Source: Eubacterium sp.
GTDB taxonomy: Bacteria > Bacillota > Clostridia > Oscillospirales > Acutalibacteraceae
DNA length: 64,000 nt
Reading direction: 5' to 3'
Assembly (NCBI GenBank): GCA_017463985.1
Contig: JAFUEH010000011.1
Span: forward strand, 1 to 64,000
Below the pieces are notes generated by a model. It made no database searches and was not told the origin of the DNA. It saw only the letters and a list, made by a program, of their open reading frames with translations. Both the position numbers and the translations under genes were made by a program. Below are positions 190 to 15,055 of the stretch, in pieces; within the stretch, counting starts at the first letter, position 1; each line of letters begins with the position of its first letter.

Positions 190-3100
190 TTAGGACTGTG
201 CCGAGAGGTTGACGGTAATCATCTGCAGAATGTCGTTGTATGTCAGAACGCCTCTGCCGACCAGCACCTTGAAATAGGCGCCGTTAAACATCGCAAACTG
301 CTCCGGCGTCAGGTATGCGGCAAAGTCCTCATAAGTATACAGACCGTAGCGATCTATATCCGCCTGCATCTGTTCCCTGTCATACTGCATACCGTCCCCA
401 ACGGCAAAATATTCAAACCGTCCGGCATGATCCTCACCGGTCATGGACAGCATATTTTCCACCATGAAGTTGTCATTATATGCTGTCTGAAGCGAATAGG
501 AACCGACCGTTTCCGTTTGGAGCGTGTAATCCGTCAGCGTCACGGTTGTGTTCGTTCCGTCCGGCGCCTGCTTGACAAAGCGTTCGCCAAGGTATTCCGC
601 TGCATTGGACGGCGTAATATACGTATAGGTGTTCCTGTCTGCGTTAAAGAAGCCGTGCTGCTGGATCGTCCGTACCGCTGTGCCGTCGCTGAAATGCAGG
701 GTGAGCACCTCCCATTCCTGCGTACCGTGATACCAGCAAAGGGTAACCGGCTGAGCCTCATAGCAGCCGTTCCACAGGCTCCAGGTCATGACCATATCGC
801 CCACCTTGATCTCCTCGACGGGCTTTTGCGTACCGTCCGCCATCGTCACCAGCGTACCGTCCGTCACGCAGGAGCTGTACGTCGCCGCACCGAACTTATA
901 CTGCACGTAGTAATAATAGGTGGTGCCGTCGTTAGAAACATAGTGATACTGCACCAGATGGGTAGAAGCGCTGTTGTCCTTCTCTATTTCGTTGGAGGTA
1001 TAGCAAACGCCGAGGTTGTTTTTGCCGTAGCCGTAATATTGTGTGTTCATATTACGGCCGTACGGGCTGGTACCGCTCCAGGTCTTTTCTCCGCTGGCGC
1101 AGGTAAAGACGCTCGTGTCCGGTCCGGACGAAGCGCTCTTGCCGTGCGGCCAGGTCGTTGTGCTCTTGGAATATTCGTACTGCTTTTCGCCGGTTTCCTG
1201 GTTATAATCAATGATATGCAGCTCGCTGAACACCGGTGCAAAGTAATAGATCTTACCGCTGGAATAAGCAGAATTACCGTTGGAGCTTGTCGGGTTGACC
1301 GTCACGATCGGGTAATAAACCGTTTGACCGGCCACCGTGGTTTTACCGATCGTGGTACTCGTTGCGGACACGTCGGGCATCACATACGTTTTGCTGTCGG
1401 TGCCGATCACCTTCTTGGCCGCATAGCTGCCGGCAGCGCCGTCATAGCTAAAGGCAGCGTTATAGGTGATATCGTCCGGTTCTACTGCCGTCACATTGAT
1501 GACGATCTGCTTTTGATATGTCTTATCAAAGGCAGTGCCGTCCTTGCTGTAATTGTAAGGATCGGTATAGGTATAAGTAACGGTATACTCGCCGCTCTCC
1601 GTAAACGCAATCGTTTTACCGGTATAATCGGTGCCGTTCATGCTCACCGTATAGGGAAGCGTATTGCTGTTTTTCACCGGTGTCAGGATCATCGGATCCC
1701 AAGTAAAGGACGTAGCGTCGGTCTCCTTATCGAAGGACAGCTGAACACTCTTTGTGGTGCTGTCGTAGTAACAGTAACGGTTGCTGCCCTCGGTTTTGGC
1801 AATATAGTTTTTCGCGGTGTAGTCAAACGTCGCCGTCGGCGCAATCGGATACTGCCCGTTGACGGTTTCATCATACACCGGCGCCGTCAGCAACGACGCG
1901 GAAGCGCCGGCCGCCTTTAAGGTGTACACCGTGCCGGTATAGCTGCTAACCGATTTTTCAAGGTAGCCGTAATTGTTGCCGGTCCGGTCATCGGTCGCAG
2001 CCTGTGCCTGCGCAGCGGTAATGCTGCCGGCATCGGTGATAAAGAAGATGCCCATATTCACATACGTGCTGCCGCTGTTGGTATAAGCGAAAGTAGCGTC
2101 GTTATAGACGGAGCTCATGACCGAGCTGTAGGTGCTCGGCAGGTCGGACTTCGTCAGGTAATTGTACTGCATCAGCGTTCCCAGCAGATGCAGTTGGCAG
2201 TTAGCCGTTTTTACACGCACACCAAGACCCTTTAATCCGCCGCGGTCAGACGTGCTCGTCACACAGTTATTCAGCGTCACATCACCGCCGCCGATGTCAA
2301 TATTGGCAAGCGCGCCGCCGGCAAAGGTCGTATTCTCAAAATACACTGTGCCGCTGTCGATCTGCACCGCGTTCTTGGTTTCGGAAACATAAGAATTATA
2401 AATATTGGCGTCGCCGGTGATCCACACGCCCGGCGCATAGTACTGATTTTCCTGACCGGAGGTAACGGCCTTCGGATATACCGTTCCGAGCAGGCGCACG
2501 TTATCCAGCGCACCGCCGCCGTTGAGCGTCATATAGGCATTCGCAGCGCCGGAGAAATCTGTCCGCGCATCCGTCACGCTGAACCCGTTGCCGTAGAGCG
2601 TTTTGCCGTTATTGACCGTGATCTTTTTGCAATTGACATCGCCCAGCAGCACCGCATTATTCGCCGTAATGCTCGCCAGCGTAGCACCTTCGGCGTAGTT
2701 TGTACCGTTGACGATTTCCAAATACAGCGTCGCCACCGCTGTGCCGTATTGCTGCGCCGTCAGCTGCACCACACCGGTGCCGGTGAATTTCACGGTGCCG
2801 GCGCGCCAGTCGGCGGTATCAGCGGTATAGGTGCCGTTGGCTGTTCCCGCCACCTTTGTAACGGTCAGGCTGACCTCGTTGCTATCGATTGCGACGCTTT
2901 CGTCCTGTGCCGTGAACAGGCTGGACAGCGCGATGCTGTTAGCATTACCGGCACGGTAGAGATAGGCGTCCGTATGCGGCAGCTTCACCGCCAGGTTGTA
3001 AACCGGCTCCAGTGCCGGCAGCACCTCCGTTTCTGTATAGTCGCAGCGGCTGCAGCTTCTTTGGCGTAGTCCTTCGCGGTTCACCGCCGGCGCGGTAACG

Positions 3101-4503
3101 GTCTCCCATTCGCCCATATCATGGCCGAGGGCTGGCGTATAGTTATCGGTATACCGTGAATCGCAGCGCGTGCAGGTATATGTTGTATAGCCGTCCGCGG
3201 TGCAGGTTGGATAAGCAATCTCCTCCCGATAGTCATGGCCGAGCGCCGGCACGGTTTCCGGTGCTGTCAGCTGCTCGCCGCAGATCGGGCAATAGGTACC
3301 GCCCGTCTGACCGTCTTCCGTACAGGTAGCCGCAACGGCGGAGAACGGCAACGGCGTATGCAGATCCTCTCCGTCTACCACATTGACCTGATTAGAATAA
3401 ACGGTGACGGTCTTGCCGTTTTGCTGATAAGTAACATATCCCTTGACCGCCCAGCGGTACTGACCGATCTTTTTCATATTCGTGATATAGGTCTCGTCCC
3501 GATAGGTATCGAACTGGGAGGCCAGCATTTTATTATTGATATTCACATCAAAGGACTGCGGCGCAAAGTCGTCTGCCTTTTGATAGTAGAACAGCATACC
3601 GACGGCATACGGGGTAATCTCCTCGGGAAGCGCAGTTTTCATCACGAAGGAACCGACATTCTTTTCCGCATCGTGGCGGTAATGCAGCGCCAACACCGCC
3701 GTATCCGCCGCTGCTTCCGGCGCGTCAAACTGCATAGCCGGTTTGTCGGTATAGGTCGGTGTTACGGTCACGCTCTCGCCCGTCTGCAGACGCGCCAGGA
3801 CTTCGTCCGTCAGCTGCCAACGACCGTCTGTATAGCCGTAACGATACGGCACGCTTTCCGGTGCCAGCGGTGCCAAATCCGTCACCTGCGCCCATTCCTC
3901 CGCCGTTTTTTCTACGGTTGAAAAGACCTGTCCGCTTTCGCTGCAGAAGGTCAGCACCGCGCTACCATCGGTATAATAGACTGCACGGAGCGAGGTGTTC
4001 ACTGTCATCGGGAAGGTATAGCTGCTATCCTCCGCAAAATATCGCTTAGAAACCGTTTCCAGCCAGCCGCGGAAGGTATAACCCTCGACCGTCGGCGCCG
4101 TGACCGACACCGCTGTGCCGGAGACCACGGTATAATTGCCGACGCCTGCCTGTGTGTCTTCAAATACAGTGGCCACCTCCGCCTCCGGCAGGGAGGCCGC
4201 AACGGTCAGGCGCAGGTAAGGCTGCAGATCCGACGCCGCTTCCATCAGCGCCGCCGTGGCCGCGTCGATCGCCGCCTGCTCCTCCAGCGTATCCGCCAGC
4301 GGCTGATATTGCTGAACTACCGCCTGCAGCGCACTGTAAGAGGCCGGCGTATAGTCCGCTTCCTCATAACATTCGATATGCTGCAGCACCGCCAGCAAAG
4401 CCGATCGGTCCGCGCTTTCCTCGGCGTATACAAGGCTGCCAAAGGAGCAGCACAGTAACAGCAATGCTGCGGTCAACAGAAGACCTATTCGTTTTCTCAT
4501 CAT
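190..4503 (-). CDS. Large secreted multidomain protein with C-terminal Hint domain
   Basis: Secreted protein of 1437 residues and unknown role. Residues 1-27 form a signal peptide (MMRKR, then a hydrophobic run ending VYAEE). A GYTFRGW segment near residue 140 resembles InlB/Flg_new repeats. Residues 394-505 carry cysteine-pair repeats separated by ALGHD motifs, as in many clostridial surface proteins. Residues about 600-780 look like a right-handed beta-helix. Cys1212 opens a Hint-type domain: GTLVTMADGTQKPVEEIKVG, then QHGFF, then DNFMVENML near 1344. There is no obvious C-terminal His-Asn pair, so self-cleavage chemistry is uncertain. About 85 residues follow the Hint fold. No LPxTG anchor is visible. 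The start has CGGAG about 8 bases upstream. The gene has its own promoter and no operon partners. Identity as a surface or secreted protein is firm; the function is not. Confidence 0.8.
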   Translation of the reverse strand: MMRKRIGLLLTAALLLLCCSFGSLVYAEESADRSALLAVLQHIECYEEADYTPASYSALQAVVQQYQPLADTLEEQAAIDAATAALMEAASDLQPYLRLTVAASLPEAEVATVFEDTQAGVGNYTVVSGTAVSVTAPTVEGYTFRGWLETVSKRYFAEDSSYTFPMTVNTSLRAVYYTDGSAVLTFCSESGQVFSTVEKTAEEWAQVTDLAPLAPESVPYRYGYTDGRWQLTDEVLARLQTGESVTVTPTYTDKPAMQFDAPEAAADTAVLALHYRHDAEKNVGSFVMKTALPEEITPYAVGMLFYYQKADDFAPQSFDVNINNKMLASQFDTYRDETYITNMKKIGQYRWAVKGYVTYQQNGKTVTVYSNQVNVVDGEDLHTPLPFSAVAATCTEDGQTGGTYCPICGEQLTAPETVPALGHDYREEIAYPTCTADGYTTYTCTRCDSRYTDNYTPALGHDMGEWETVTAPAVNREGLRQRSCSRCDYTETEVLPALEPVYNLAVKLPHTDAYLYRAGNANSIALSSLFTAQDESVAIDSNEVSLTVTKVAGTANGTYTADTADWRAGTVKFTGTGVVQLTAQQYGTAVATLYLEIVNGTNYAEGATLASITANNAVLLGDVNCKKITVNNGKTLYGNGFSVTDARTDFSGAANAYMTLNGGGALDNVRLLGTVYPKAVTSGQENQYYAPGVWITGDANIYNSYVSETKNAVQIDSGTVYFENTTFAGGALANIDIGGGDVTLNNCVTSTSDRGGLKGLGVRVKTANCQLHLLGTLMQYNYLTKSDLPSTYSSVMSSVYNDATFAYTNSGSTYVNMGIFFITDAGSITAAQAQAATDDRTGNNYGYLEKSVSSYTGTVYTLKAAGASASLLTAPVYDETVNGQYPIAPTATFDYTAKNYIAKTEGSNRYCYYDSTTKSVQLSFDKETDATSFTWDPMILTPVKNSNTLPYTVSMNGTDYTGKTIAFTESGEYTVTYTYTDPYNYSKDGTAFDKTYQKQIVINVTAVEPDDITYNAAFSYDGAAGSYAAKKVIGTDSKTYVMPDVSATSTTIGKTTVAGQTVYYPIVTVNPTSSNGNSAYSSGKIYYFAPVFSELHIIDYNQETGEKQYEYSKSTTTWPHGKSASSGPDTSVFTCASGEKTWSGTSPYGRNMNTQYYGYGKNNLGVCYTSNEIEKDNSASTHLVQYHYVSNDGTTYYYYVQYKFGAATYSSCVTDGTLVTMADGTQKPVEEIKVGDMVMTWSLWNGCYEAQPVTLCWYHGTQEWEVLTLHFSDGTAVRTIQQHGFFNADRNTYTYITPSNAAEYLGERFVKQAPDGTNTTVTLTDYTLQTETVGSYSLQTAYNDNFMVENMLSMTGEDHAGRFEYFAVGDGMQYDREQMQADIDRYGLYTYEDFAAYLTPEQFAMFNGAYFKVLVGRGVLTYNDILQMITVNLSAQS

Positions 4504-4720: not shown

Positions 4721-5527
4721 TTACAGCCGATACGCCTTGACGGCGTTTTCAGACAGCAGCTGCCGATATTCGCTGTCGGAATAACCCAGCGACAGCAGAC
4801 GGCGCAGCTCCTCGTGCGGCGACCACATCGGATAATCCGTACCGAACAGGACGCGGTCGACGCCGTAACGGGCGATGATCTCCTTGATCGCGGTATCTGT
4901 CAGCCATTGGAAGCTGGACGAGCAATCCACATACAGATTCGGCAGTCCGCTGAGCTTGCGCGACGCCTCCTCCCACAGTGACCAGCCGCCGAAATGCGCG
5001 CCGATCACGGTCAGGCCGGTATAGATCCGCATCACCGGCAGCAGCCGGTTGGGATTAGAATTATCGTAGCGGCTGTCACCAGTATGCATTAGGATCGGGA
5101 GCTGTTCCCTTTCGCACAACTCGTAGATCTTCAGACAGCGGTAATCGTCGATCTTAAAGCCCTGAATATCCGGATGGAGCTTTACGCCGTGCAGACCGAG
5201 CGAAAGGAGGTTTTCCACATCGCCCTCCAGGTCCTCCGATTCCGGATGGAGCGTTCCGAGCCCGATCAGCCTGCCGTGATTTTCCGCCACTGCACTGGCA
5301 ATAAAGCGGTTAATACCTCTCACCTGAGAGGGCTTTGTCGCGACGGACTGCACCACGTACTGATCAATACCGGCGCGGTCGCCCTCGCGCAGCAGCATCC
5401 CGAGCGTACCGTCACCGAAGCCGTGCACGTGGTAAAAATTTTCGATTGCGCCCTCTGCCTTCTGCGCAATTTTATCAGGATAGATATGGCAATGCGCGTC
5501 AATAACATGAAAGCCGTTGCCAACCAT
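4721..5527 (-). CDS. Metal-dependent amidohydrolase (amidohydrolase_2 family)
   Basis: TIM-barrel hydrolase of 268 residues, probably cytoplasmic, substrate unknown. The metal-ligand set looks complete: HxH in DAHCH near residue 11, GVKLHPD, LMHTG, GAHFGG and the terminal Asp in LFGTDYP. It is the last gene of the T-box operon. Its start overlaps the stop of the acyl-CoA synthetase fusion by one base (TAATG), so translation is probably coupled. Relatives include decarboxylases and lactonases of the aminocarboxymuconate-semialdehyde decarboxylase type, so it may hydrolyse or decarboxylate a product of the upstream enzymes. That role is inference. Confidence 0.8.
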   Translation of the reverse strand: MVGNGFHVIDAHCHIYPDKIAQKAEGAIENFYHVHGFGDGTLGMLLREGDRAGIDQYVVQSVATKPSQVRGINRFIASAVAENHGRLIGLGTLHPESEDLEGDVENLLSLGLHGVKLHPDIQGFKIDDYRCLKIYELCEREQLPILMHTGDSRYDNSNPNRLLPVMRIYTGLTVIGAHFGGWSLWEEASRKLSGLPNLYVDCSSSFQWLTDTAIKEIIARYGVDRVLFGTDYPMWSPHEELRRLLSLGYSDSEYRQLLSENAVKAYRL

Positions 5528-8052
5528 TATGCCGTCACCACCCCTGCTGCTTTTTGCAGGCCGAGCTTTTTCACCGCGTCCTCGCGCATCTGATACTTCA
5601 GGATCTTACCGGCGGCGTTCATCGGAAATTCCTTCACAAAATCCACATAGCGCGGTACCTTGTGGCGCGCCATGCTCGCGCCGACGAATTCCTTCATCTC
5701 CTGCTCGGTCATGGTTTCGCCTTCCTTCAGGATCACACAGGCCATGATCTCCTCGCCATACTGCTCGTCGGGTACGCCAATTACCTGTACGTCGCTGACC
5801 TTCGGGTTTGTATAAATAAATTCCTCGATCTCTTTCGGATAGATATTTTCACCGCCGCGGATGATCATATCCTTCAATCGGCCGGTGATCTTATAGTTTC
5901 CGTCCGGCGTGCGGCAGGCAAGGTCGCCGGTATGCAGCCAGCCGTCCTGATCGATCGCGGCCGCCGTTGCCTCCGGCATTTTGTAATAGCCCTTCATAAT
6001 ATTGTAGCCGCGCGCCACAAATTCGCCGGTCACGTTATCCGGACAGTCCTCTCCGGTTTCAGGGTCGATGATCTTACATTCGATCTCCGGCATCGCTCTG
6101 CCGACCGTGGCCACACGCACCTCGAGCGGATCGTCCGTTGAGCTCATCGTACAGCCGGGAGAGGCCTCCGTCTGACCGTAAACGATCGTGATCTCACGCA
6201 TATTCATCTTATTTACCACGTCCTGCATCGCAGAAATCGGACACGGGCTGCCAGCCATGATGCCGGTACGCATATAAGAAAAGTCCGTTTTCGGGAAATC
6301 GGGATGCTCCAGCAGGGCAATAAACATCGTCGGAACCCCGTGGAAGGCGGTGATATGCTCGTTATGGATACACGCAAGCGACGGCTTGGGTGAAAAATAC
6401 GGGATCGGGAGCAACGTACCGCCGTGGGTCATGGTGGAGGTCATCGCCAGCACCATGCCAAAGCAGTGGAACATCGGCACCTGGATCATCATCCGGTCCG
6501 CGGTAGAAAGGTCCATTCTGTCACCGATGCATTTACCGTTATTCACAATATTATAGTGCGTGAGCATAACGCCCTTTGGGAAGCCGGTCGTACCGGAGGT
6601 ATACTGCATATTGCAGACATCGTCAGGCTTGACCGTCGCCGCCATGGCATAAACCTGCTCCTTGTTAACCTGCGCCGCACGCTCCAACGCCTCATTCCAC
6701 TCCAGACAGCCCTTCTGACGGAAGCCGACGGTGATCACGTTCCTGAGGAACGGCAGGCGCTTGCTGTGCAGCGGCTCTCCCGGCTTTGTATCGGCCAGCT
6801 CGGGGCAAAGCTCCGCCACGATCTTGCCGTAATGCGTGTCCTTAGCGCCCTCGGTAATGACCAGGGTATGGGTATCGGACTGCTTGAGCAAATACTCCGC
6901 CTCATGGATCTTATAGGCGGTATTCACCGTTACCAGCACCGCGCCGAGCTTGACGGTCGCCCAAAAGGTGATGAACCACTGCGGCACGTTCGACGCCCAG
7001 ATCGCAACATGGCTGCCCTGCTTGACGCCCATAGAGATCAGCACGCGCGCAAATTCGTCCACGTCATCGCGGAATTCCGAATAGGTACGGGTATAATCCA
7101 GCGTTGTATATTTAAAAGCATACTGGTCGGGGAATTCCTCCACCATTCTGTCCAGCACCTCGGAAAAGGTCTTTTCGATCAGAAGATCCTTTTTCCAGAC
7201 AAAGCGGCCGGTGTGCGCATTGTTATAATAAAGCGTTTTTTCCTTGCCGGCAGTATCGTTAAACTGCTTCATATAATTCACAAAGTGAGAGAAAATGATC
7301 TCCATATCGTCAATTTCCTCACACCACACGGGATCCCACACGAGGGAGATATAGCCGTCAAAGTTGACGGAGCGCAGCGCCAGCATGACGTCCTTGAGCG
7401 GGAGCGCGCCCTCACCAATCAGGCAGTATTCGACGCCGTCCGCCGTCTTTTTACTGTCTGTCAGCTGCACGTGCTTCACATAAGCGCCGAGGTTTTTAAT
7501 GATCTTGTCCGGCATTTCACCAACTGTCTGATAGGCGGCGCTGACGTTCCACAGCGCGGCAAGGCTGTCGCTGGCGAAATTTTCCAGCATATCGCGCAGC
7601 ACGGCCGTATCGGCAAACAGACCCTTCGTCTCAATCAGTACAACAACGCCCTTTTCCTCTGCCTGCGGCACGATCTTTTCCAGCATGGAGGCAATAAAGG
7701 CAAAGCCCTCCTCCGTCTTTTCCGCCGCCTCTGCGCGCACCCTGATATAGGGAATCTGCAGATTTTCGGCAATCGCAAGACACGCCGCTACCTCGTCAAG
7801 CGTCTCCGCCGCGCAGCTTTCATCAGACAGGTCGCACACCGTGTCGATACACGCCAGCGCGAGCTTGCGCTCATATAGCTTACGGCGCGTCGCCATCGCG
7901 GCATAGTCGTGAAAAGCGCCGTCCTTATCGGTGAACAGGCGGTTATGGATATTATGCAGCTCGATGCCCTTAAAGCCTAATTCCTCTGCTGCGTCACAAA
8001 ATTCATCAAAGCTGACGCCGTGCCAGCCCTTGGTTGAAAATGAAAGCTTCAT
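5527..8052 (-). CDS. Fusion: sugar-isomerase-type TIM barrel + AMP-forming acyl-CoA synthetase
   Basis: An 841-residue two-domain protein. Residues 1 to about 275 are a xylose-isomerase/AP-endonuclease-2-like TIM barrel. It keeps the Glu in VVVLIETKG and the His in KHVQLTDS, but the usual Asp-x-x-His pair reads WNVSAAY and the final Glu region reads SLVWDPVW, so the metal site looks incomplete. Residues about 285-835 are an ANL-superfamily acyl-CoA synthetase: YTSGTTGFPKG at 484-494, YGQTEASPG, the hinge GRLKDMIIRGGENIYPKEIE and the C-terminal catalytic Lys in AAGKILKY. The synthetase part should activate a carboxylate with ATP and CoA; the acid is not identifiable. The start overlaps the preceding gene's stop (ATGA), and the stop overlaps the amidohydrolase start. 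The two halves may be a fused enzyme pair, or a sensor plus an enzyme. Confidence 0.85.
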   Translation of the reverse strand: MKLSFSTKGWHGVSFDEFCDAAEELGFKGIELHNIHNRLFTDKDGAFHDYAAMATRRKLYERKLALACIDTVCDLSDESCAAETLDEVAACLAIAENLQIPYIRVRAEAAEKTEEGFAFIASMLEKIVPQAEEKGVVVLIETKGLFADTAVLRDMLENFASDSLAALWNVSAAYQTVGEMPDKIIKNLGAYVKHVQLTDSKKTADGVEYCLIGEGALPLKDVMLALRSVNFDGYISLVWDPVWCEEIDDMEIIFSHFVNYMKQFNDTAGKEKTLYYNNAHTGRFVWKKDLLIEKTFSEVLDRMVEEFPDQYAFKYTTLDYTRTYSEFRDDVDEFARVLISMGVKQGSHVAIWASNVPQWFITFWATVKLGAVLVTVNTAYKIHEAEYLLKQSDTHTLVITEGAKDTHYGKIVAELCPELADTKPGEPLHSKRLPFLRNVITVGFRQKGCLEWNEALERAAQVNKEQVYAMAATVKPDDVCNMQYTSGTTGFPKGVMLTHYNIVNNGKCIGDRMDLSTADRMMIQVPMFHCFGMVLAMTSTMTHGGTLLPIPYFSPKPSLACIHNEHITAFHGVPTMFIALLEHPDFPKTDFSYMRTGIMAGSPCPISAMQDVVNKMNMREITIVYGQTEASPGCTMSSTDDPLEVRVATVGRAMPEIECKIIDPETGEDCPDNVTGEFVARGYNIMKGYYKMPEATAAAIDQDGWLHTGDLACRTPDGNYKITGRLKDMIIRGGENIYPKEIEEFIYTNPKVSDVQVIGVPDEQYGEEIMACVILKEGETMTEQEMKEFVGASMARHKVPRYVDFVKEFPMNAAGKILKYQMREDAVKKLGLQKAAGVVTA

Positions 8053-9431
8053 GCCTGCTCCTCCTCATACACGATTTTATTGATAGCGTTCAGATAGGCG
8101 CGGATGCTGGCGCCGATAATGTCGGTCGAAATACCGTTGCCGGAATAGAGCTTTCCGCCGGAACGCAGCTTGACCACGGCGGAGCCCATGGCCTCCTTGC
8201 CCTCGGTCACTGCCTGAATTTGGAAATCGTCCAGCTCATAGTGGTGGCCGATGATCTTGTCGATTGCAATAAAGGACGCGTCGATCGGGCCGTCTCCCAG
8301 CTCGATGCCCTCGGTCGTGTTGCCGTCACGCTCCAGCACAATGTGCGCGCTGGGAGTGATGATATTGCCGTTGTTAATCACATAGCTGACCAGCTTATAG
8401 GCGGACGGCACCTGCAGCGCCGCAGAAGCAACGATGGCGTCCAGCTCCTTTGCGCCGACGGTTTTCTTGGCAGCTACCCGCAAGAATTCGCCGTATACCT
8501 TAACGGCGTCCTCCTCGGAAAGGTCGTAGCCCAGCTGGGCGACCGCGGTCAACACCGCCTCCTGCGAGTCGTTTTTGTCCAGCTTAATGCCTTCAAAATC
8601 TGTGCTGACGGTAACCGTTGTCTTTTCGTTTTTGGCGTTATCGGTGATCCAGTTGATCTGGTTCACGATACGGTGCAGCTCCGTATAGCGGATTGCGGAG
8701 GTCATGCCGTAATCGTTGCCGTAATCCTTGATGATCGAACCGAAGGTATCCAGGCTGACCGTATCGCCGCCGACAGCGCACTTGACGCAGGAGGCGCCGC
8801 TCTTGACGGCCAGCACCGCCTGTGCTGCGGCAAGGCCGGCCTTATTGCTGCACTGAATACCGACCGGTACGCCGGTATTGTCAATAATCTTTTTCACGAA
8901 CGCCGCGAAATCATCCGGCAGTAAGGAGCCGGCTGTATCGCAGACGGTGATCTTTTCTGCACCGTTTTCCACAGCGGTACGGATCGCGTTGTAAAGGAAT
9001 TCCTCCTCCGCTCTGGTAGCGTCGGTCGCACAGAACTCCACAGCGTAGCCTGTCTCCTTCGCCTTCGTTACGGTGAACCGGATCCAGTCGAGCATTTTCT
9101 CCGCCTTTTTGTGGCAGGTATATTCCATACCGACAGGCGATACCGGCAGCTCAATGCGGACGGTGCCGCGCTTAGCAGCGGACAGCGCCTCGGCCGCCTC
9201 GTCAATACTCTGCGCCGTCATGCCGGCGGCGACGGAAAGCTCGCTGTTTTTCACAAAGGCGGAAATCGTACGCACCAGTAGGATATCGGTTCTGCTGACG
9301 GCGACGGCCGGTAGCTCGATCACGTCCACATTTAGCTTTTCCAGCTGACGGGCAATTTCAATCTTCTCTTTGAAGCTGAAGCTGTTGTTTTCTCTGCACA
9401 AGGTCGTGTCTGCAATTTTCACATTTTTCAT
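8049..9431 (-). CDS. Divergent 2-isopropylmalate synthase (LeuA) family protein lacking metal ligands
   Basis: A 460-residue homologue of isopropylmalate/homocitrate synthases. The HMGL-like TIM barrel is followed by a LeuA-type regulatory domain (GIELGDGPIDASF, AVTEGKEAMGS, YSGNGISTDIIGASIRAYLN). The active site is altered. The family DTTLRDGEQ reads DTTLCRENN, so the catalytic Arg and metal Asp are gone. The family HxHND reads QCSNK (Q193, S195), removing the two metal His. NGIGERAGN reads AVGGDTVSLD. I chose Met at 9431 because AGAGGG lies 8 bases upstream; a longer reading to 9485 would run into the T-box terminator. It is the first gene after a probable Leu T-box, which fits a leucine-linked role, but ordinary LeuA chemistry looks impossible. 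It may be a pseudoenzyme, a leucine sensor or a neofunctionalised enzyme. Confidence 0.75.
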   Translation of the reverse strand: MKNVKIADTTLCRENNSFSFKEKIEIARQLEKLNVDVIELPAVAVSRTDILLVRTISAFVKNSELSVAAGMTAQSIDEAAEALSAAKRGTVRIELPVSPVGMEYTCHKKAEKMLDWIRFTVTKAKETGYAVEFCATDATRAEEEFLYNAIRTAVENGAEKITVCDTAGSLLPDDFAAFVKKIIDNTGVPVGIQCSNKAGLAAAQAVLAVKSGASCVKCAVGGDTVSLDTFGSIIKDYGNDYGMTSAIRYTELHRIVNQINWITDNAKNEKTTVTVSTDFEGIKLDKNDSQEAVLTAVAQLGYDLSEEDAVKVYGEFLRVAAKKTVGAKELDAIVASAALQVPSAYKLVSYVINNGNIITPSAHIVLERDGNTTEGIELGDGPIDASFIAIDKIIGHHYELDDFQIQAVTEGKEAMGSAVVKLRSGGKLYSGNGISTDIIGASIRAYLNAINKIVYEEEQA

Positions 9432-9461
9432 AGCTGTTCCCTCTTTCTGCGTACGTTTTGA

Positions 9462-9735
9462 TAAAAAATAAATCCCTGAGGCCATGCCTCAGGGACGAAT
9501 AAACCGTGGTACCACCCTGATTGATCTGCAAAACAGATCCGCTCTGCGAGGTTCAAGCAAACCTCCTGCCATGATAACGGGGCAAGCCGTAGGCGCTTAC
9601 TGTTTTCCGCGCCTCTGCTCCGGAACGAGGCTTGTTATCCGTTCGCACCGCCTTACACCGACCGGCGGCTCTCTGTGCCGAAGGGAGGACAACAATTAAT
9701 TCCTTCACTGCATTTTAGGTTCTGTACAATTTTTC
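9462..9735 (-). promoter_or_regulatory. T-box riboswitch, probable leucine (CUC) specifier
   Basis: Minus-strand leader of the LeuA-like operon. Stem I begins with a GCAGTGAAGG K-turn and contains the distal AGAGAG...GGTCGGTGTAA signature. The T-box sequence AGGGTGGTACCACGG lies at 9504-9518. A terminator follows: TCCCTGAGGC / GCCTCAGGGA at 9473-9495, then TTTATTTTTT. In my hand fold, UUGUUGUCC pairs with GGAUAACAA and GGAA with UUCC. This leaves a specifier loop GCCUCG in which CUC (Leu, 9627-9629) is followed by a purine. The T-box call is firm; the specifier is a hand-folded inference. Confidence 0.93.
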
Positions 9736-9799: not shown

Positions 9800-10492
9800 C
9801 TACATCCCCTGACCGGCGGTTTTAAAGTGCAGCTCACGCATACCCTCCACCTCGTCACAGACGGGCTTGAGCCGGCACGCAGAGCAATCCAGCGGAATGT
9901 TCTGCATAATATGGTTGAGCGTTTCGGTGATCCGGTCGTTCTTCTCGGCAAGCGCCTCCAGCGCGGCAAAATCCACAGCGCTGTCGGTCACATAGATGAT
10001 TCTTGCGCTCTTCACTGCCGGCAGCTCCAAATACTTTTCCGCCAGCAGATTCCCTACGGCTTCAAAGGAAATGCCGGCCTGCAGCGCCTTTTTGGTCACG
10101 CGCACGTTTTCCTTATGGGAGGAGGAAACCGTCCGCACCATAAAGCCCTCGGGGAAATAGTGGTATTTCTGATATTCCACCTTGCGGACGGTATCGAAGG
10201 CCATCTGCTCGTCCTCTACCGCTTCCGTCTGAATCAGTGAAATACGCGCAAAGGGCGTATCGCCGTTCAGGGCGCTCAGCTCCGGTCCGACAACGGTAAT
10301 GCCGCTTGGTTCGATCGGGCGCGCGGTCACTAAATTAAAGCCGACGCCCGTCAGCTCAAACGCCTCGTCACGCTTCAGCACCAGTGTATTGCGGCCTAAA
10401 TCGCGCCATTTTTTCCCGAGCGGATAGGTGCGCTGCCGGTAAGGCGCCAGCAGGGCGTCCGCTTCATCCATCAGGCTGTCAAAAAACTTCAT
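9800..10492 (-). CDS. Stand-alone protein resembling the acetyl-CoA synthase middle domain
   Basis: A 230-residue protein with no confident family name. Residues 44-190 align by eye, end to end, with the middle (A2) domain of acetyl-CoA synthase beta subunit (AcsB/CdhC). SGITVVGPEL, the Phe-x-x-Gly turn at YFPEGF, RVTKKALQAGISFEAVGNLL and ARIIYVTDSAV match AcsB segments in order. Residues 203-212 (CSACRLKPVC) match the start of the AcsB A-cluster cysteine motif, but the rest of that cluster domain and the N-terminal domain are absent. It is the last gene of the CooC-HgdABC-like operon and overlaps the small membrane gene by one base (TAATG). It may bind CoA, a metal cluster or the dehydratase-like complex; all are inference. 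The homology needs a profile search. Confidence 0.6.
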   Translation of the reverse strand: MKFFDSLMDEADALLAPYRQRTYPLGKKWRDLGRNTLVLKRDEAFELTGVGFNLVTARPIEPSGITVVGPELSALNGDTPFARISLIQTEAVEDEQMAFDTVRKVEYQKYHYFPEGFMVRTVSSSHKENVRVTKKALQAGISFEAVGNLLAEKYLELPAVKSARIIYVTDSAVDFAALEALAEKNDRITETLNHIMQNIPLDCSACRLKPVCDEVEGMRELHFKTAGQGM

Positions 10493-10656
10493 TACAGCTT
10501 TCTGTCCTTTTTAAGATTATCGTAGTGCGGCTGCATCTTTTCGTAAAAGACGCGCACAAGTTTCATATCGGCATTGAACCAATACACGGTAAAGGTAACG
10601 GCAAAAAACGCGGAAAAGACCACCGCGATCGCCGCTAAAATCTTCATTACTTTCAT
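10492..10656 (-). CDS. Small single-pass membrane protein
   Basis: About 54 residues: MKVMK, then one hydrophobic segment (ILAAIAVVFSAFFAVTFTVY), then a basic tail ending KKDRKL. The Met at 10656 is chosen because AGGAG lies 7 bases upstream; a longer reading to 10695 would overlap the activase. It sits between the activase and the ACS-middle-domain gene with tight spacing, so it probably belongs to the same operon, perhaps as a membrane tether. No family was recognised. Confidence 0.6.
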   Translation of the reverse strand: MKVMKILAAIAVVFSAFFAVTFTVYWFNADMKLVRVFYEKMQPHYDNLKKDRKL

Positions 10657-10669
10657 ATCTGTTCTCCTG

Positions 10670-11461
10670 TCAGGCAAGGCCCTTTTGTCTTGCATATTCC
10701 GCTGCGCCGAGCGCGCCCATCAGCTGCGGGTCAATGTCAAGGTCAACCACCTTGATCTTGAGCACCTTCTCAATCGCCTGCTTCAGGCCGTCGTTCTTCG
10801 CACAGCCGCCCGTTAAGGTAATACTGTCCGTGGCGCCGGCCTTCTTCGCCATGACAAAGCAGCGCTTGGCGACCGCTAGCTGAATACCGGCAGCGATCTC
10901 GTCCATCGGCTTACCCTCGCCCACCAGCGAAATGACCTCGCTTTCGGCAAATACCGTACACTGCGCCGTGATCGGAATCGTGTTTTTGGCTTTGAGCGAA
11001 AGCTTTGAAAACTCGGGAAGCGTCATTTCAAACGCATTCGCCATCGCCTCATAAAAGCGTCCCGTACCGGCGGCGCACTTGTCGTTCATCGCAAAGTTCT
11101 TAACAGTACCGTCCGTATCAATCGCGATACCCTTTACGTCCTGACCGCCGATGTCAATGATCGCCTTCACGCGCGGATTCGTCACGTGTACGCCCATCGC
11201 ATGACACGAAATCTCGCTGATGTTTTCATCGGCAAACGGCACCTTGTTACGGCCGTAGCCCGTACCGATCAGATACGTCAGATCCTTTGCGCTGTTCAGC
11301 TCAGGCACCTGCGCAACAGCGTCGTCCAGCGCGATCTCCGCCGACTGCACCGGATTGATCTTGCTCCTGTTGGTCACGTCGGCAACCAGCTTGCCGTCCT
11401 CGTCAAGGATCACGCATTTTGTGTAGGTGGAGCCTACATCACAGCCTCCAAAATATTTCAT
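10670..11461 (-). CDS. 2-hydroxyacyl-CoA dehydratase activase (HgdC/BcrD-type ATPase)
   Basis: A 263-residue ASKHA-fold ATPase that carries an [4Fe-4S] cluster at a homodimer interface and injects a low-potential electron into a dehydratase-type partner. Visible features are the N-terminal phosphate loop (GGCDVGSTYTK), IDIGGQDVKG, cluster cysteines C129 (NDKCAAGTGRF) and C168 (QCTVFAESE), and the C-terminal GGCAKN and MGALGAAEYA motifs. Length is normal for the family. The start at 11461 is preceded by AAGGAGAG; the upstream Met at 11485 lacks such a site. It lies directly downstream of the two dehydratase-like genes, as expected for the activator of that pair. Confidence 0.92.
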   Translation of the reverse strand: MKYFGGCDVGSTYTKCVILDEDGKLVADVTNRSKINPVQSAEIALDDAVAQVPELNSAKDLTYLIGTGYGRNKVPFADENISEISCHAMGVHVTNPRVKAIIDIGGQDVKGIAIDTDGTVKNFAMNDKCAAGTGRFYEAMANAFEMTLPEFSKLSLKAKNTIPITAQCTVFAESEVISLVGEGKPMDEIAAGIQLAVAKRCFVMAKKAGATDSITLTGGCAKNDGLKQAIEKVLKIKVVDLDIDPQLMGALGAAEYARQKGLA

Positions 11462-11507
11462 AGATACTCTCCTTATTGATTCCAAAAATGATTGATAAAA
11501 CGCAGTC

Positions 11508-13079
11508 CTACCATGCTAAACTATCATCAAAATCCACCAGCGTGGGATCGACCGGCTCTTCCTGTAAAACAGTGGTCATATATTTATTGACGCATTCACG
11601 CATATCGCGTCTGGAGATCGTGCGCGGATCCATCAGGTCCTGCGGCACCCAGATAAAGCTGACGTTGTGCTCGCGCGCCTGGTCGTCAAAAATACCGTTC
11701 AGACCGTCCATGCCCTTGCAGGAGATCTGGTCATACATAATGACCATATCGGCGTTGAACTCCTCCACAATGCGCCAAAGCTCATCGACCACGTTTTGGT
11801 AGCCGCCCTTCGTATGCTTACGCATCGTAGTACGCTGAAGCGTCTTAGCAAAGGTTGCCAGCGCGGCCTCCTTATCCTCTGTATCATACATATAGTAGGA
11901 GATCATGGTTTCCATATCCATGACCACGTTGATGCCCCAGCAGTTTTCCAGCCAGTTGGCAAGGCTGGTATAATAGTTCGCCGGACAGGACCAAACAATC
12001 GCTCTATGCCGCATTTCCTTAGAGCACGGCACTTGCTTTTCATAAGCCTTGAGCATCATGCGGTTTACTTTTTTATCCACCTTCAGGAAGCGCTTGTCCT
12101 TACCGCCGGAGATGTGAAAATAGAACAGTCTGTACAGCCAGAAGGTAGCGCCCGTCATCTGCGGATAATCGGTCTTATTGACCTCCCATTTCTGAATTTC
12201 ATATTCTGTCTGCTTATTATACGTCCGCATCGCGTCAAAGAACGCGTCCCAATCCCATTTTTCGCCGGTTTGCTCCTCCACAAAGGCAATCGCGGACTTC
12301 ACCTCGTCAACCGCATATTCCTGCACGTCCTCACCGTTATAGCGCAGCGGCACATTAATGGTCTGCGTAGGAATATTAAAACGCCGGTCGATATAGGACG
12401 AGTTCATGATAGAGCCGTCGCACGGCATATTACAGGTCAGCGAGCATTTGCCGACGAGCGGATAATCGTCGTTGATCGCTACGCCTGCCTCGGCGCTCGG
12501 CAGCGGACAAACATCCGCCGGTACACCGTAGCTCTCGGTAATGTCAAGGTACGGCGGGGTGATATTCTGATCTACCATCGAGGAAAGGAAGATCGGGATC
12601 GTCGTCACGTGGTTGTCCCTTAAATTCGGGAAACCGGTGATAAACTCCGAGGAAAAGATCTCGTCCACGTTCACGGTTTTATCCGCCCATTTCGGATGCT
12701 TGTGAAAATGGCGGTCGTTCGCCAGCAAGAAATTGATCAGGTCCGTCGTCGGCTTCACCAGCATATTCATGTGCAGATGCGTCATACGCAGCTGCGGACC
12801 GCGCAGGCCCTCCGTATGACGGTCTACCCAGGCCGGCGCGCTGAGATAGCTCGCCATCCAGCGATAGCTCCAAATTCCCTTGACGGTGGAGACGGGCGCC
12901 TTGCCCGCCATGACGATCACGTCCTTCCAGGTGATCAACCAGCGGTAATAATCATACAGGGTGTCCGAAACGCCGCGCCACTCTCTATGCTTCAGCAGAC
13001 CGGTCTTGTCCTCATGCAACCGGCCGAGGTCATGCGGCTGATTTCTCCAGAGCGTCTTTAACTTTTCCTTCAGCTTCAT
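11508..13079 (-). CDS. 2-hydroxyacyl-CoA dehydratase family protein (HgdA/B-like subunit 1)
   Basis: A 523-residue member of the HgdB/BcrC family, longer than classical dehydratase subunits (about 380-480). Candidate cluster cysteines are in VCPLPSAE, KCSLTCNMPCDGS, VPCSKEM, WSCPANYYT and DQISCKGMDG. It overlaps the start of its partner's stop by four bases (ATGA), so the two are translationally coupled and probably form a heterodimer. The family includes true dehydratases, benzoyl-CoA reductase subunits and double-cubane-cluster proteins that reduce other small molecules. No dedicated CoA-transferase or 2-hydroxyacid dehydrogenase lies in this operon, so the substrate is open. Confidence 0.85.
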   Translation of the reverse strand: MKLKEKLKTLWRNQPHDLGRLHEDKTGLLKHREWRGVSDTLYDYYRWLITWKDVIVMAGKAPVSTVKGIWSYRWMASYLSAPAWVDRHTEGLRGPQLRMTHLHMNMLVKPTTDLINFLLANDRHFHKHPKWADKTVNVDEIFSSEFITGFPNLRDNHVTTIPIFLSSMVDQNITPPYLDITESYGVPADVCPLPSAEAGVAINDDYPLVGKCSLTCNMPCDGSIMNSSYIDRRFNIPTQTINVPLRYNGEDVQEYAVDEVKSAIAFVEEQTGEKWDWDAFFDAMRTYNKQTEYEIQKWEVNKTDYPQMTGATFWLYRLFYFHISGGKDKRFLKVDKKVNRMMLKAYEKQVPCSKEMRHRAIVWSCPANYYTSLANWLENCWGINVVMDMETMISYYMYDTEDKEAALATFAKTLQRTTMRKHTKGGYQNVVDELWRIVEEFNADMVIMYDQISCKGMDGLNGIFDDQAREHNVSFIWVPQDLMDPRTISRRDMRECVNKYMTTVLQEEPVDPTLVDFDDSLAW

Positions 13080-14275
13080 TGCGCGTTCTCCTTTCCTTTC
13101 TGTATTTTCTTGATTTCAAGGCTTTCCACAAAGGCCTGTACACGGGTGCGCAGCTGGCCGGAGGCGCTCGCCGTATACTGGCGGTCGACGCACACGGAGG
13201 GAATACCGAAATCGTTCGTAACAATGTGTGAGGCAAGAGCGCGTTCATAGCCCCAGTATTCACAGAATTTCAGCTGCTCATACAGCACGCCGTCGGCGTG
13301 ATAGTCGTTCACCAGCTGGCGCACATAGTCGCGCCGACCCTGTACCTTATCCTGCGACATATAGCGCGGACACTGACACGTTTTCATATAATGAAGCACG
13401 ATCTGCTCCAGCACGTTATGCTCGTCGGTGAGGCGGATCTCTTCTCTGCCCGGCAGCGAGCCAAAGCAAAAACGGTCTGCCACCACAAGCGCGCCGCTTT
13501 CCTCGATCAGCTTCGTAAAATCAGGATCGTCCATCTCTGAACCGACGACGACGATTTTTGCGCGGTAATTTTTCTTGGCGTCGGGAACACGCGTTTTGAG
13601 CTCCTCTGCTGTTTCACGCAGCTTGTCGAGGATCAGGTATTTCGGACAGCAGTAGGTGATCAGATTCAGTACGTGGAACTCATAGCCCGTGATACGCGGA
13701 TTTTCCTCCTTGCGGTATTCACCGATCTCCGTAATCAGACGGCAGACCTCGTTGTGTTCCTCCACAGCCTTCCGCAGCGCTTCCTCGCTGATGTCCACAC
13801 CGTAGACCTCCTGCAGCTTGTCGAGCACCTTGGTTTGCAGCTGCTGTACATAATGGCGTACGGTGTGCGGCTGGATCTTAAACGGCACGTCGGAAATAGT
13901 GACGAAAAACTTTTCGTTATTCACCAGCTGCAGCAGCTCAAAATGCTCGTAAGCACGGTTCATCTGTGAACAGGTCTCTGAGCCGAACAGCGCGTCCAAA
14001 TGCTGATAGCCGCCCTCAATGCCTCTTTCCACCAGCGCTTTAGAATAGCCGCACAGGAAAGAGCTCATATAATACGTCGAAATATCCAGCGAACCGGTTC
14101 TCGGCGCACGCAATCTTGTTGAAAAGCAGCCGGGCAGATTCAGCAGTACCTCGGGAATATGATAACAGGTATACGCCAGGCACAGCTTTCCCTCGCTTTT
14201 CGCCTGCTGCACCAGCTCGTTATTCGCCTCCTGCAGCAGATTCTCAAAATAGAATAAATGCTTTAAATCTTTCAT
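13076..14275 (-). CDS. 2-hydroxyacyl-CoA dehydratase family protein (HgdB-like subunit 2)
   Basis: A 399-residue HgdB/BcrB-family protein. Family landmarks are visible: YTCYHIPEVLLNLPG near residue 35, GSETCSQMNRAYE near 100, an Ile/Val-rich Rossmann strand AKIVVVGSEMDD, and KFCEYWGYE near the C-terminus, where the Cys is the usual cluster ligand. GGAG lies about 7 bases ahead of the start. It is the second gene of the operon, 12 bp after the CooC-like ATPase. With the following gene it should form the two-subunit cluster-bearing component that the activase reduces. Confidence 0.87.
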   Translation of the reverse strand: MKDLKHLFYFENLLQEANNELVQQAKSEGKLCLAYTCYHIPEVLLNLPGCFSTRLRAPRTGSLDISTYYMSSFLCGYSKALVERGIEGGYQHLDALFGSETCSQMNRAYEHFELLQLVNNEKFFVTISDVPFKIQPHTVRHYVQQLQTKVLDKLQEVYGVDISEEALRKAVEEHNEVCRLITEIGEYRKEENPRITGYEFHVLNLITYCCPKYLILDKLRETAEELKTRVPDAKKNYRAKIVVVGSEMDDPDFTKLIEESGALVVADRFCFGSLPGREEIRLTDEHNVLEQIVLHYMKTCQCPRYMSQDKVQGRRDYVRQLVNDYHADGVLYEQLKFCEYWGYERALASHIVTNDFGIPSVCVDRQYTASASGQLRTRVQAFVESLEIKKIQKGKENAQ

Positions 14276-14287
14276 AATGCTTCTCCG

Positions 14288-15055
14288 TCAGTCAATGAGT
14301 GTCAGCCGGCGCAGCGCCTCCTCAGCACCGCGCACCACCCGGCTGTCGTCCGGCAGGTCAAGGATACGCTTACCCTCGATGTCGTAAATCGCCAGGTTCG
14401 GGTCATTTTCAATATAAGCCAGCACGGGGATACCGTGTGTATCAAGATACGGGATAATTTCCTCGCCCGGCAGACGGTTAATGATACAGCCGATCTTTTC
14501 ATACATTACCAGCTCGTCCGCTACGCCCTTGATCGTGTTGATGACCTGCGTACCCTTCTTGCTGGCGTCGCTGACCAGTAGCAGGTGCGTTACCTTTTCC
14601 ATCACGCGGCGGTTGATCTGCTCAATGCCTGCCTCGCCGTCGATCACCACATAATCAAATTCGCCGGACAGCAGGCTGATAACCTCTTTCAGATAAGAAT
14701 TGATCTTGCAGTAGCAGCCGGCGCTTTCCGGTCTGCCGACGGCGATGAAAGCAAAGCCGTCTGTTTCCACCAGCGCGTCAAACAGCTTATAGCGCGCATC
14801 GCCCAGCAGCTCGATCGCCGCCTTTGTCTGACCGTCCTCCACCGAAGCGACGATCTCCTTACGAATATCGTCGATCGTCAGCCGGACATCAATCCCCAGC
14901 GCCGTAGAAAGACCGACCGCCGGATCAGCGTCGATGGCAAGGATCTTCTTGTCAGGATGATGCTTCACCAGCGCACGGACGATCGCCGCAGAAACCGAGG
15001 TTTTTCCGACGCCGCCCTTGCCGGCAAGCGCAATGATTTTTGCTTTGCTTTCCAT
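14288..15055 (-). CDS. CooC-like nickel/metal-insertion ATPase
   Basis: A 255-residue MinD/ParA-class ATPase of the CODH maturation factor type. It has the deviant Walker A GKGGVGKTS (12-20), switch region IDADPAVGLS, and the CooC-specific C-x-C pair C114/C116 (AGCYCKIN) that binds metal across the dimer. CooC proteins serve carbon monoxide dehydrogenase/ACS maturation, but no CODH gene is present in this window. Here it opens an operon of dehydratase-like proteins and an ACS-middle-domain-like protein, so it may load or handle metal for that complex (inference). The RBS is AGGGGAG. Confidence 0.85.
   Translation of the reverse strand: MESKAKIIALAGKGGVGKTSVSAAIVRALVKHHPDKKILAIDADPAVGLSTALGIDVRLTIDDIRKEIVASVEDGQTKAAIELLGDARYKLFDALVETDGFAFIAVGRPESAGCYCKINSYLKEVISLLSGEFDYVVIDGEAGIEQINRRVMEKVTHLLLVSDASKKGTQVINTIKGVADELVMYEKIGCIINRLPGEEIIPYLDTHGIPVLAYIENDPNLAIYDIEGKRILDLPDDSRVVRGAEEALRRLTLID

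Follow-up and report, generated by a model that had tools for sequence, protein, structure and literature searches.

In class I benzoyl-CoA reductase (BCR; BzdNOPQ), the BzdN subunit holds an [8Fe-9S] double-cubane cluster through Cys36/73/100/263/293/327 and BzdO a [4Fe-4S] cluster through Cys95/128/380, as given in an excerpt of the published account (PMC11971306). Few double-cubane enzymes are understood; outside this group, potentials like theirs are known chiefly from nitrogenase. For CooC proteins two roles are discussed, nickel delivery and ATP-driven folding or conformational chaperoning of the site (PMC6006190, in the part available). In the present study we analysed an operon that combines relatives of both, together with a fragment of acetyl-CoA synthase (ACS), in a 64,000-nucleotide stretch (the window) of Eubacterium sp. 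(assembly GCA_017463985.1, contig JAFUEH010000011.1, positions 1 to 64,000 of the forward strand). With moderate confidence, we read this operon as encoding an ATP-driven, very-low-potential iron-sulfur (Fe-S) oxidoreductase of the class I BCR/double-cubane kind, equipped with a metal-loading module derived from carbon monoxide dehydrogenase (CODH)/ACS. The gene set is conserved and apparently undescribed; we recognised no description of the operon in the open-access literature searched.

The original prediction, made from the nucleotide sequence alone, had assigned six minus-strand genes between positions 15055 and 9800 to these families. All six were confirmed as open reading frames (ORFs), and Pfam searches supported the families: CdhC for P0001, BcrAD_BadFG for P0003, HGD-D for P0004 and P0005, and a CbiA/ArsA-type P-loop for P0006. 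The features of the locus are as follows:

14288–15055, minus strand: CooC-type deviant-Walker P-loop ATPase P0006 (255 aa), with GKGGVGKT and CYC motifs
13076–14275, minus strand: small HgdB/BzdN-like subunit P0005 (399 aa), HGD-D match of 320.6 bits; putative [8Fe-9S] double-cubane subunit
11508–13079, minus strand: large HgdB/BzdO-like subunit P0004 (523 aa), HGD-D match of 148.4 bits over residues 174–490; putative [4Fe-4S] active-site subunit
10670–11485, minus strand: ASKHA activase P0003 (HgdC/BcrA family), putative ATP-driven electron donor; CoA_E_activ match of 214.5 bits (cut-off 125.4)
10492–10695, minus strand: single-pass membrane microprotein P0002, 67 aa as the longest frame, 54 aa if the start is at 10656
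9800–10492, minus strand: stand-alone ACS-middle-domain protein P0001 (230 aa), CdhC match; cysteines C203, C206 and C212
15090–15118, minus strand: promoter-like site ahead of the CooC gene, TTGAAA-17-TATACT (10/12 matches), with TG before the second hexamer

Taken as longest frames, the genes overlap or lie at most 22 bases apart. The likely start of P0003 is an ATG at 11461, yielding MKYFGGCDVGS, rather than 11485, where the longest frame begins; with this later start the largest gap is 46 bases. The promoter proposed for the operon is present as a site, but the number of such sites does not exceed chance (5 found versus 4.7 expected).

Reductase core

In a profile alignment counted by eye, C37/C75/C102/C270/C302/C338 of P0005 fell on Cys36/73/100/263/293/327 of BzdN, and all six positions were cysteine in 66 of 66 small-subunit rows, including four rows from the second operon type described below. 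P0004, which carries an N-terminal extension of ~170 residues, has three candidate cluster cysteines: C191 and C220 align with cysteines of the double-cubane cluster protein (DCCP) and of HadB, and C191/C220/C454 all align with MbdO. When P0004 was compared with BzdO, C191 fitted Cys95, C220 lay one residue off Cys128, and C454 met Cys380 only in a piece of the alignment scoring 1.6 bits. These three cysteines were found in each of the 72 large-subunit rows. The counts refer to HgdB frames of at least 370 (small) or 480 (large) residues; alignments A4, A5 and A6 comprised 46, 25 and 8 rows, picked for start codon, length and spread.

The activase motifs NDKCAAGTG and AQCTVFAESE, which we take to hold the cluster cysteines, occurred in 62/62 and 61/62, respectively, of the full-size activases of the fetched loci. 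The genome contains no HGD-D protein outside the operon and one activase above the cut-off, the sole other BcrAD_BadFG match lying below it. The score against the BzdN equivalog was 99.5 bits (cut-off 453.8); the model of DCCP (NF040772), the nearest NCBIfam model of P0005, gave scores of 145.6 and 45.4 bits in the operon, under the cut-off of 350. Taken together, these features give the core the appearance of an electron machine that is complete, ATP-dependent and of the double-cubane type, with an active site that has diverged. The HgdB pair had been predicted to be HgdABC-like; the HGD-D families held, whereas the likeness to HgdABC/HadBC did not, the small subunit having the full six-cysteine set of BzdN/DCCP.

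ACS-like protein P0001

Profile search bore out the predicted ACS similarity of the 230-residue protein. P0001 matched Pfam CdhC with 29.7 bits (cut-off 24), its residues 44–171 corresponding to positions 20–152 of the 155 in the profile, i.e. to the middle-domain part. ACS structures were reached by profiles only: P0001 alone gave nothing meaningful against the PDB (phmmer), and with a profile of 54 family members all 15 PDB matches were ACS/CdhC. The underlying alignment (A3) was composed of P0001, nine relatives from genome searches and 44 of 80 loci collected as described below (L011 and L094 probably represent one genome). At E 0.001, 46 of the 54 members matched CdhC and eight matched nothing; no member matched any other Pfam family. 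With a profile of three stand-alone proteins, 40 of 398 genomes from the phylum gave matches, own genome included, and among the matches listed all frames were of full-ACS size (712–784 residues), except for the P0001 gene and a 245-residue frame in genome G355. By these comparisons, P0001 is a true but partial relative of ACS, homologous to ACS only.

P0001 possesses three cysteines in total (D-C-x2-C-x5-C), with no CGC motif and no fourth cysteine, while the ACS of all 28 loci examined show C-x2-C-x8-C-x9-C followed by CGC, the A-cluster motif. Since both the CGC motif and the fourth cysteine are missing, P0001 is unable to hold a Ni,Ni A-cluster. The cysteine tail lies outside the CdhC match, and its correspondence to the ACS cysteines is ambiguous: the profile alignment extended to the first A-cluster cysteine in only 3 of 52 ACS frames, where C206, not C203, was matched. 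Thus, of the predicted match to the middle domain and first cysteines of AcsB, the domain match stood and the identity of the cysteines is plausible. The AlphaFold model of P0001 has a mean predicted local distance difference test (pLDDT) score of 91.2, with values of 61–77 in the cysteine-bearing tail, which would fit a tail ordered only upon binding of a partner or metal. His222 was considered as a general fourth cluster ligand and rejected: it is present in 81/81 rows, but missing in L015, L048, L049 and the tails of the second operon type.

CooC-type ATPase P0006

GKGGVGKTS and CYC (C114-Y115-C116) were invariant in the 25 aligned CooC rows, and the best PDB match of the P0006 profile was CooC 3kje (E 8.7e-20). 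P0006 thus shows the deviant Walker motif and the CxC that characterize the CooC family. In that family the CxC lies at the dimer interface, and nickel binding with ATP-dependent nickel insertion is a further trait, putative for P0006.

Genomes with ACS were found to hold two CooC types, scoring 148–172 and 68–82 bits against the operon CooC profile. The high-scoring type is located within the acs cluster after an AcsV-sized gene (L208, L212), beside the other CooC (L209), or on stretches without ACS (L210, L213). In L208, L211 and L212, a CooC of the low-scoring type stands ahead of a CODH-sized gene. In these loci only ACS and CooC were matched by search, and the other gene names are our presumption from size, position and recall. 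ATP-dependent nickel insertion into ACS by AcsF is, by its title, the subject of a paper cited in PMC10134865. The name acsF has also been used for the gene with which the cluster begins (PMC8671834, in the part available); in our CooC tree, the row names "AcsF" and "CooC" denote scores over and under 120 bits and are labels, not identifications.

Conservation of the operon

Contigs of GTDB genomes were scanned with a cysteine-containing motif, which yielded 182 stretches and 172 confirmed relatives, 80 of which were kept. According to the record titles, the carriers are mostly Clostridia (Oscillospiraceae, Ruminococcaceae, Lachnospiraceae, Mogibacterium, Emergencia and others), many with names referring to rumen or gut; two Spirochaetaceae/Treponema and one metagenome-assembled genome (MAG) labelled Bacteroidaceae stand outside this class. 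A short CdhC frame was detected in 3 of 197 genomes sampled from the order, own genome included.

Gene order was scored in the 50 loci that extend 5.6 kb or more upstream, the other 30 being too short on this side. The order CooC-HgdB-HgdB-activase-(membrane microprotein)-ACS-like was observed in 43 of them, in agreement with the predicted co-conservation of the operon, and the individual partners were present in 49 (CooC), 48 (activase) and 44 (each HgdB) loci. L118 shows this arrangement with an extra overlapping activase frame. A simple pattern test revealed a 45–75 aa ORF with a hydrophobic stretch between the activase and ACS-like genes in 60 of 71 loci. Among nine wider stretches, six (L137–L141 and L143) had the standard order, L142 was cut by the contig end, L135 belongs to the second operon type and L136 is rearranged (CooC-ACS-like-activase-HgdB-HgdB); L139 and L143 probably derive from the same genomes as L065 and L094 and do not count as extra evidence. 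The HgdB genes are not in place in L063, which retains CooC only, nor in L072, L114, L119 and L129, which retain CooC and activase. Where the HgdB genes are out of place (these five loci and L136), CooC and the ACS-like gene mostly stay together.

Several further genes recur around the operon. A second, diverged HgdB pair was noted within ~5 kb upstream of CooC in L078, L095, L098, L099, L103, L107, L110, L118 and L125, with no further activase near these pairs in the stretches covered, several of which end at that point, so that two reductases may share one activase in such loci. Named from sequence, an HtpG/Hsp90-like gene lies near the operon in 15 loci (e.g. L114:6299–8278), in several of them between the extra HgdB pair and CooC, and a gene for an Old-yellow-enzyme-type flavin reductase of ~690 residues was read near the operon in 11 loci plus L140 and L141. 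Readings of the same kind were (i) a small SAM-methyltransferase-like gene directly after the ACS-like gene (L056, L058, L062, L064, L065, L067, L069, L070) and (ii) a methyltransferase-corrinoid-protein fusion downstream on the opposite strand (L089, L090, L100 and L109, e.g. L109:4180–5895).

Second operon type

In the class to which G355 belongs, a different one from that of the window, a short ACS-like gene was detected in 6 of 97 genomes; a 145-residue frame in G846 (E 5.8e-5) was not counted. The gene order of this second type, X-HgdB-HgdB-activase-activase-ACS-like-CooC, is seen in full in L135, L174 (where X is split into two frames) and L178 (where CooC runs to the contig end), and the part activase-ACS-like-CooC is visible in L175, L176 and L177, which are cut by contig ends. 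The X protein of L135 matched no Pfam or NCBIfam model. Two acyl-CoA dehydrogenases precede the operon in L135, and ORFs with similar N-termini (judged by eye) were found in L174 and L178. Directly after the second-type operon, G814 carries a further HgdB-HgdB-activase set (L174:10300–13706). Four of the six genomes (G355, G814, G817 and G794) also contain an ACS-sized frame; CooC could in principle serve ACS there, yet the operon copy still adjoins the ACS-like gene.

Trees were built from subsets of rows and rooted at midpoint, and the ACS-like tree is limited to frames of the size of bacterial ACS. A 100/100 branch separated 24 stand-alone ACS-like rows of both operon types from 18 ACS rows, and 17 operon CooC rows of both types formed one group (98/99). 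Because of these two groupings, the operon types look like two lineages of a single old module, not separate inventions.

Proposed function and alternative explanations

The sequence itself shows the families, the cluster ligands, the conservation of the operon and its two types. In the scheme that we infer for the proposed oxidoreductase, the activase dimer (P0003) would take an electron from ferredoxin or flavodoxin and, driven by ATP, push it to the [8Fe-9S] double cubane of P0005, which would hand it to the three-cysteine [4Fe-4S] cluster of P0004. There a substrate, probably a CoA ester, would be reduced or dehydrated. This route of electrons, via activase and double cubane to the [4Fe-4S] cluster, follows the logic of the family (PMC11971306). 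P0001 may be an accessory metallo-subunit or assembly adaptor serving P0004/P0005: its ACS-type fold would offer a surface for docking, perhaps also a contact to CoA, and an Fe-S or mixed-metal site would sit in its DC-x2-C-x5-C tail. P0006 would load, mature or fold this site, much as CODH and ACS are served by CooC-family proteins. A membrane tether for the complex may be provided by the microprotein. The proposed roles of P0006 and P0001 draw on the nickel or chaperone function of CooC and on the CoA contact of the ACS middle domain, the latter noted for one CODH-ACS in an excerpt that cites another study (PMC12289521).

Several observations weigh against this reading. The position of the catalytic His131 of BzdO is occupied by S in 69 and N in 3 of the 72 large-subunit rows, with no counterpart of the histidine. 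The conservation of the cysteine motif in the 80 loci is biased, because the pattern used for fetching contains part of it; the three cysteines are also present in ACS-like sets found without this pattern (the nine relatives and five further second-type proteins). Occurrence is scattered, the system being present in 8 of 200 family genomes (own genome included), in one of the 50 loci (L084) the ACS-like gene lacks all four partners over 6.5 kb upstream, no further neighbour common to both operon types was found, and the CooC tree carries a long-branch warning. Finally, 2-hydroxyacyl-CoA dehydratase (HAD), BCR and DCCP proteins are not known to us to need CooC, and such a need is unexplained here.

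We regard as possible, though rather doubtful, a mixed-metal enzyme of a new kind, in which the chemistry of an ATP-driven double-cubane reductase depends on the ACS-derived subunit. The DC-x2-C-x5-C motif of this subunit would bind a heterometal site loaded by CooC, perhaps a [4Fe-4S] cluster with nickel; nitrogenase-like electron pumping would then be coupled with an organometallic site of the CODH/ACS type outside CO metabolism. A HypA gene in the genome suggests that the organism handles nickel, which is a possible metal. For P0001, however, nickel is a guess, and an Fe-S cluster with one open position suits three cysteines at least equally well.

The explanation that competes best with the favoured one, unlikely as we consider it, is that CooC and the ACS-like protein act in maturation only, as assembly factors (an ATPase and an Fe-S scaffold) for the double cubane of P0005, outside the working enzyme. 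CooC belongs to the MinD/NifH class of P-loop proteins, which includes cluster carriers, a double-cubane subunit is encoded in both operon types, and CooC may be a conformational chaperone (PMC6006190, in the part available); the choice of an ACS domain would nevertheless be left unexplained. BzdN, DCCP and MbdN, moreover, have solved structures, and we know of no such assembly factors needed in their systems.

A conventional ATP-dependent 2-hydroxyacyl-CoA dehydratase (HgdABC/HadIBC type), with CooC and the ACS-like gene as fortuitous neighbours, would agree with the HGD-D and activase families and with the presence of a single activase in the window, the number found in HAD systems. We consider it improbable: HadC, the dehydratase counterpart of P0005, has proline and alanine (by eye) at two of the six positions, those of C37 and C270, that are cysteine in 66/66 small subunits; the equivalog scores were far under the cut-offs (HadC, 87 of 700; HadB, 23.7 of 750); and CooC and the ACS-like gene are conserved across two operon types.

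The genome (97% complete) contains no Prismane-family protein (CODH or hybrid-cluster protein), no CdhD and no CdhC match other than P0001, and it has no complete CODH/ACS elsewhere that would explain the CooC gene, in agreement with the original prediction. The sole B12-binding_2 match lies in an 809-residue frame, which we read as being of methionine-synthase size. A corrinoid tie to the operon was rejected: B12-binding_2 turned up in all 20 genomes compared, of which nine carry the operon and 11 lack it, and in the carriers G738 and G744 short frames (232 and 213) matched as well. As there is no CODH and no CdhD, B12-binding_2 is confined to the 809-residue frame and P0001 lacks the A-cluster motif, CO/acetyl-CoA chemistry is unlikely in this genome, which refines the original prediction. 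For the same reasons we find scarcely credible an unrecognised CO2/CO-to-acetyl-CoA system with the HgdB pair replacing CODH, despite the ACS- and CooC-derived parts and a report (PMC7000372, in the part available) of acetogenesis without canonical CODH/ACS in a Lachnospiraceae bacterium, for which the candidate put forward by its authors belongs to the Prismane family and not to this operon.

None of the three outcomes named as refuting the earlier proposal was observed. A low-potential metalloenzyme, perhaps with a CooC-loaded site, thus stays a good hypothesis, backed by the families and their co-conservation and with its chemistry refined to the double-cubane kind. If the proposed ATP-driven oxidoreductase is real, CODH/ACS metal-loading machinery would have been put to use outside CO chemistry, and gut and rumen fermenters would gain a so-far unknown reductive reaction. 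In any case, annotation of CooC or CdhC alone should not be taken as evidence of CO metabolism. The system could be tested in the carrier Emergencia sp. 1XD21-10 (L108), whose record bears no MAG label and which is probably an isolate.

Neighbouring genes in the window

Downstream of the operon, a T-box leader (9488–9717, minus strand, 119.7 bits) precedes a 2-isopropylmalate-synthase-like gene (8049–9485), which has its own promoter-like site (9767–9739, 11/12) and is probably a separate transcription unit. An 841-residue fusion of a xylose-isomerase-like TIM barrel and an acyl-CoA ligase (5527–8052, minus strand) comes next, followed by an amidohydrolase gene (4721–5527). The minus strand also encodes, at 190–4503, a protein of 1437 residues that has an InlB-type repeat and gave a weak match to a Hint-associated model. 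The synthase-like and acyl-CoA-ligase genes were rejected as parts of the operon, the synthase having its own T-box; in the 80 relative loci the synthase gave no match and the acyl-CoA ligase only two weak ones (25–26%). Comparison with a library of defence systems gave only a weak P-loop match, which was discarded.

Comparison with known systems

The locus shares with class I BCR (BzdNOPQ) the HGD-D heterodimer, the six double-cubane and three cluster cysteines and the ASKHA activase. It differs in that the window encodes a single activase and the second operon type a pair, that His131 of BzdO is not kept, that the score falls below the BzdN cut-off and that CooC, the ACS-like protein and a membrane microprotein are added; where class I BCR has two different activase subunits, the genome shows one activase above the cut-off. 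DCCP and its reductase from Carboxydothermus resemble the operon in the double-cubane ligands, which align with P0005, and in the activase partner, but the operon has two different subunits where DCCP has one. We know of no CooC or ACS partner of DCCP.

The methyl-selenium/sulfur mlp clusters were rejected as the same system: the account of them mentions the dicubane protein but presents the clusters with Ram/RACE activases and corrinoid proteins, and not with this operon (PMC10418091, in the part available). AcsB/CdhC is similar to P0001 in the sequence of the middle domain; in contrast, P0001 has 230 versus ~730 residues, without the N-terminal domain and the C-terminal A-cluster domain, in a genome without CODH. 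With the CooC/AcsF ATPases P0006 shares the P-loop, the CYC motif and its nearest PDB chain (CooC 3kje), whereas the operon CooCs form a tree group of their own, and their partners are an ACS fragment and a putative double-cubane enzyme.

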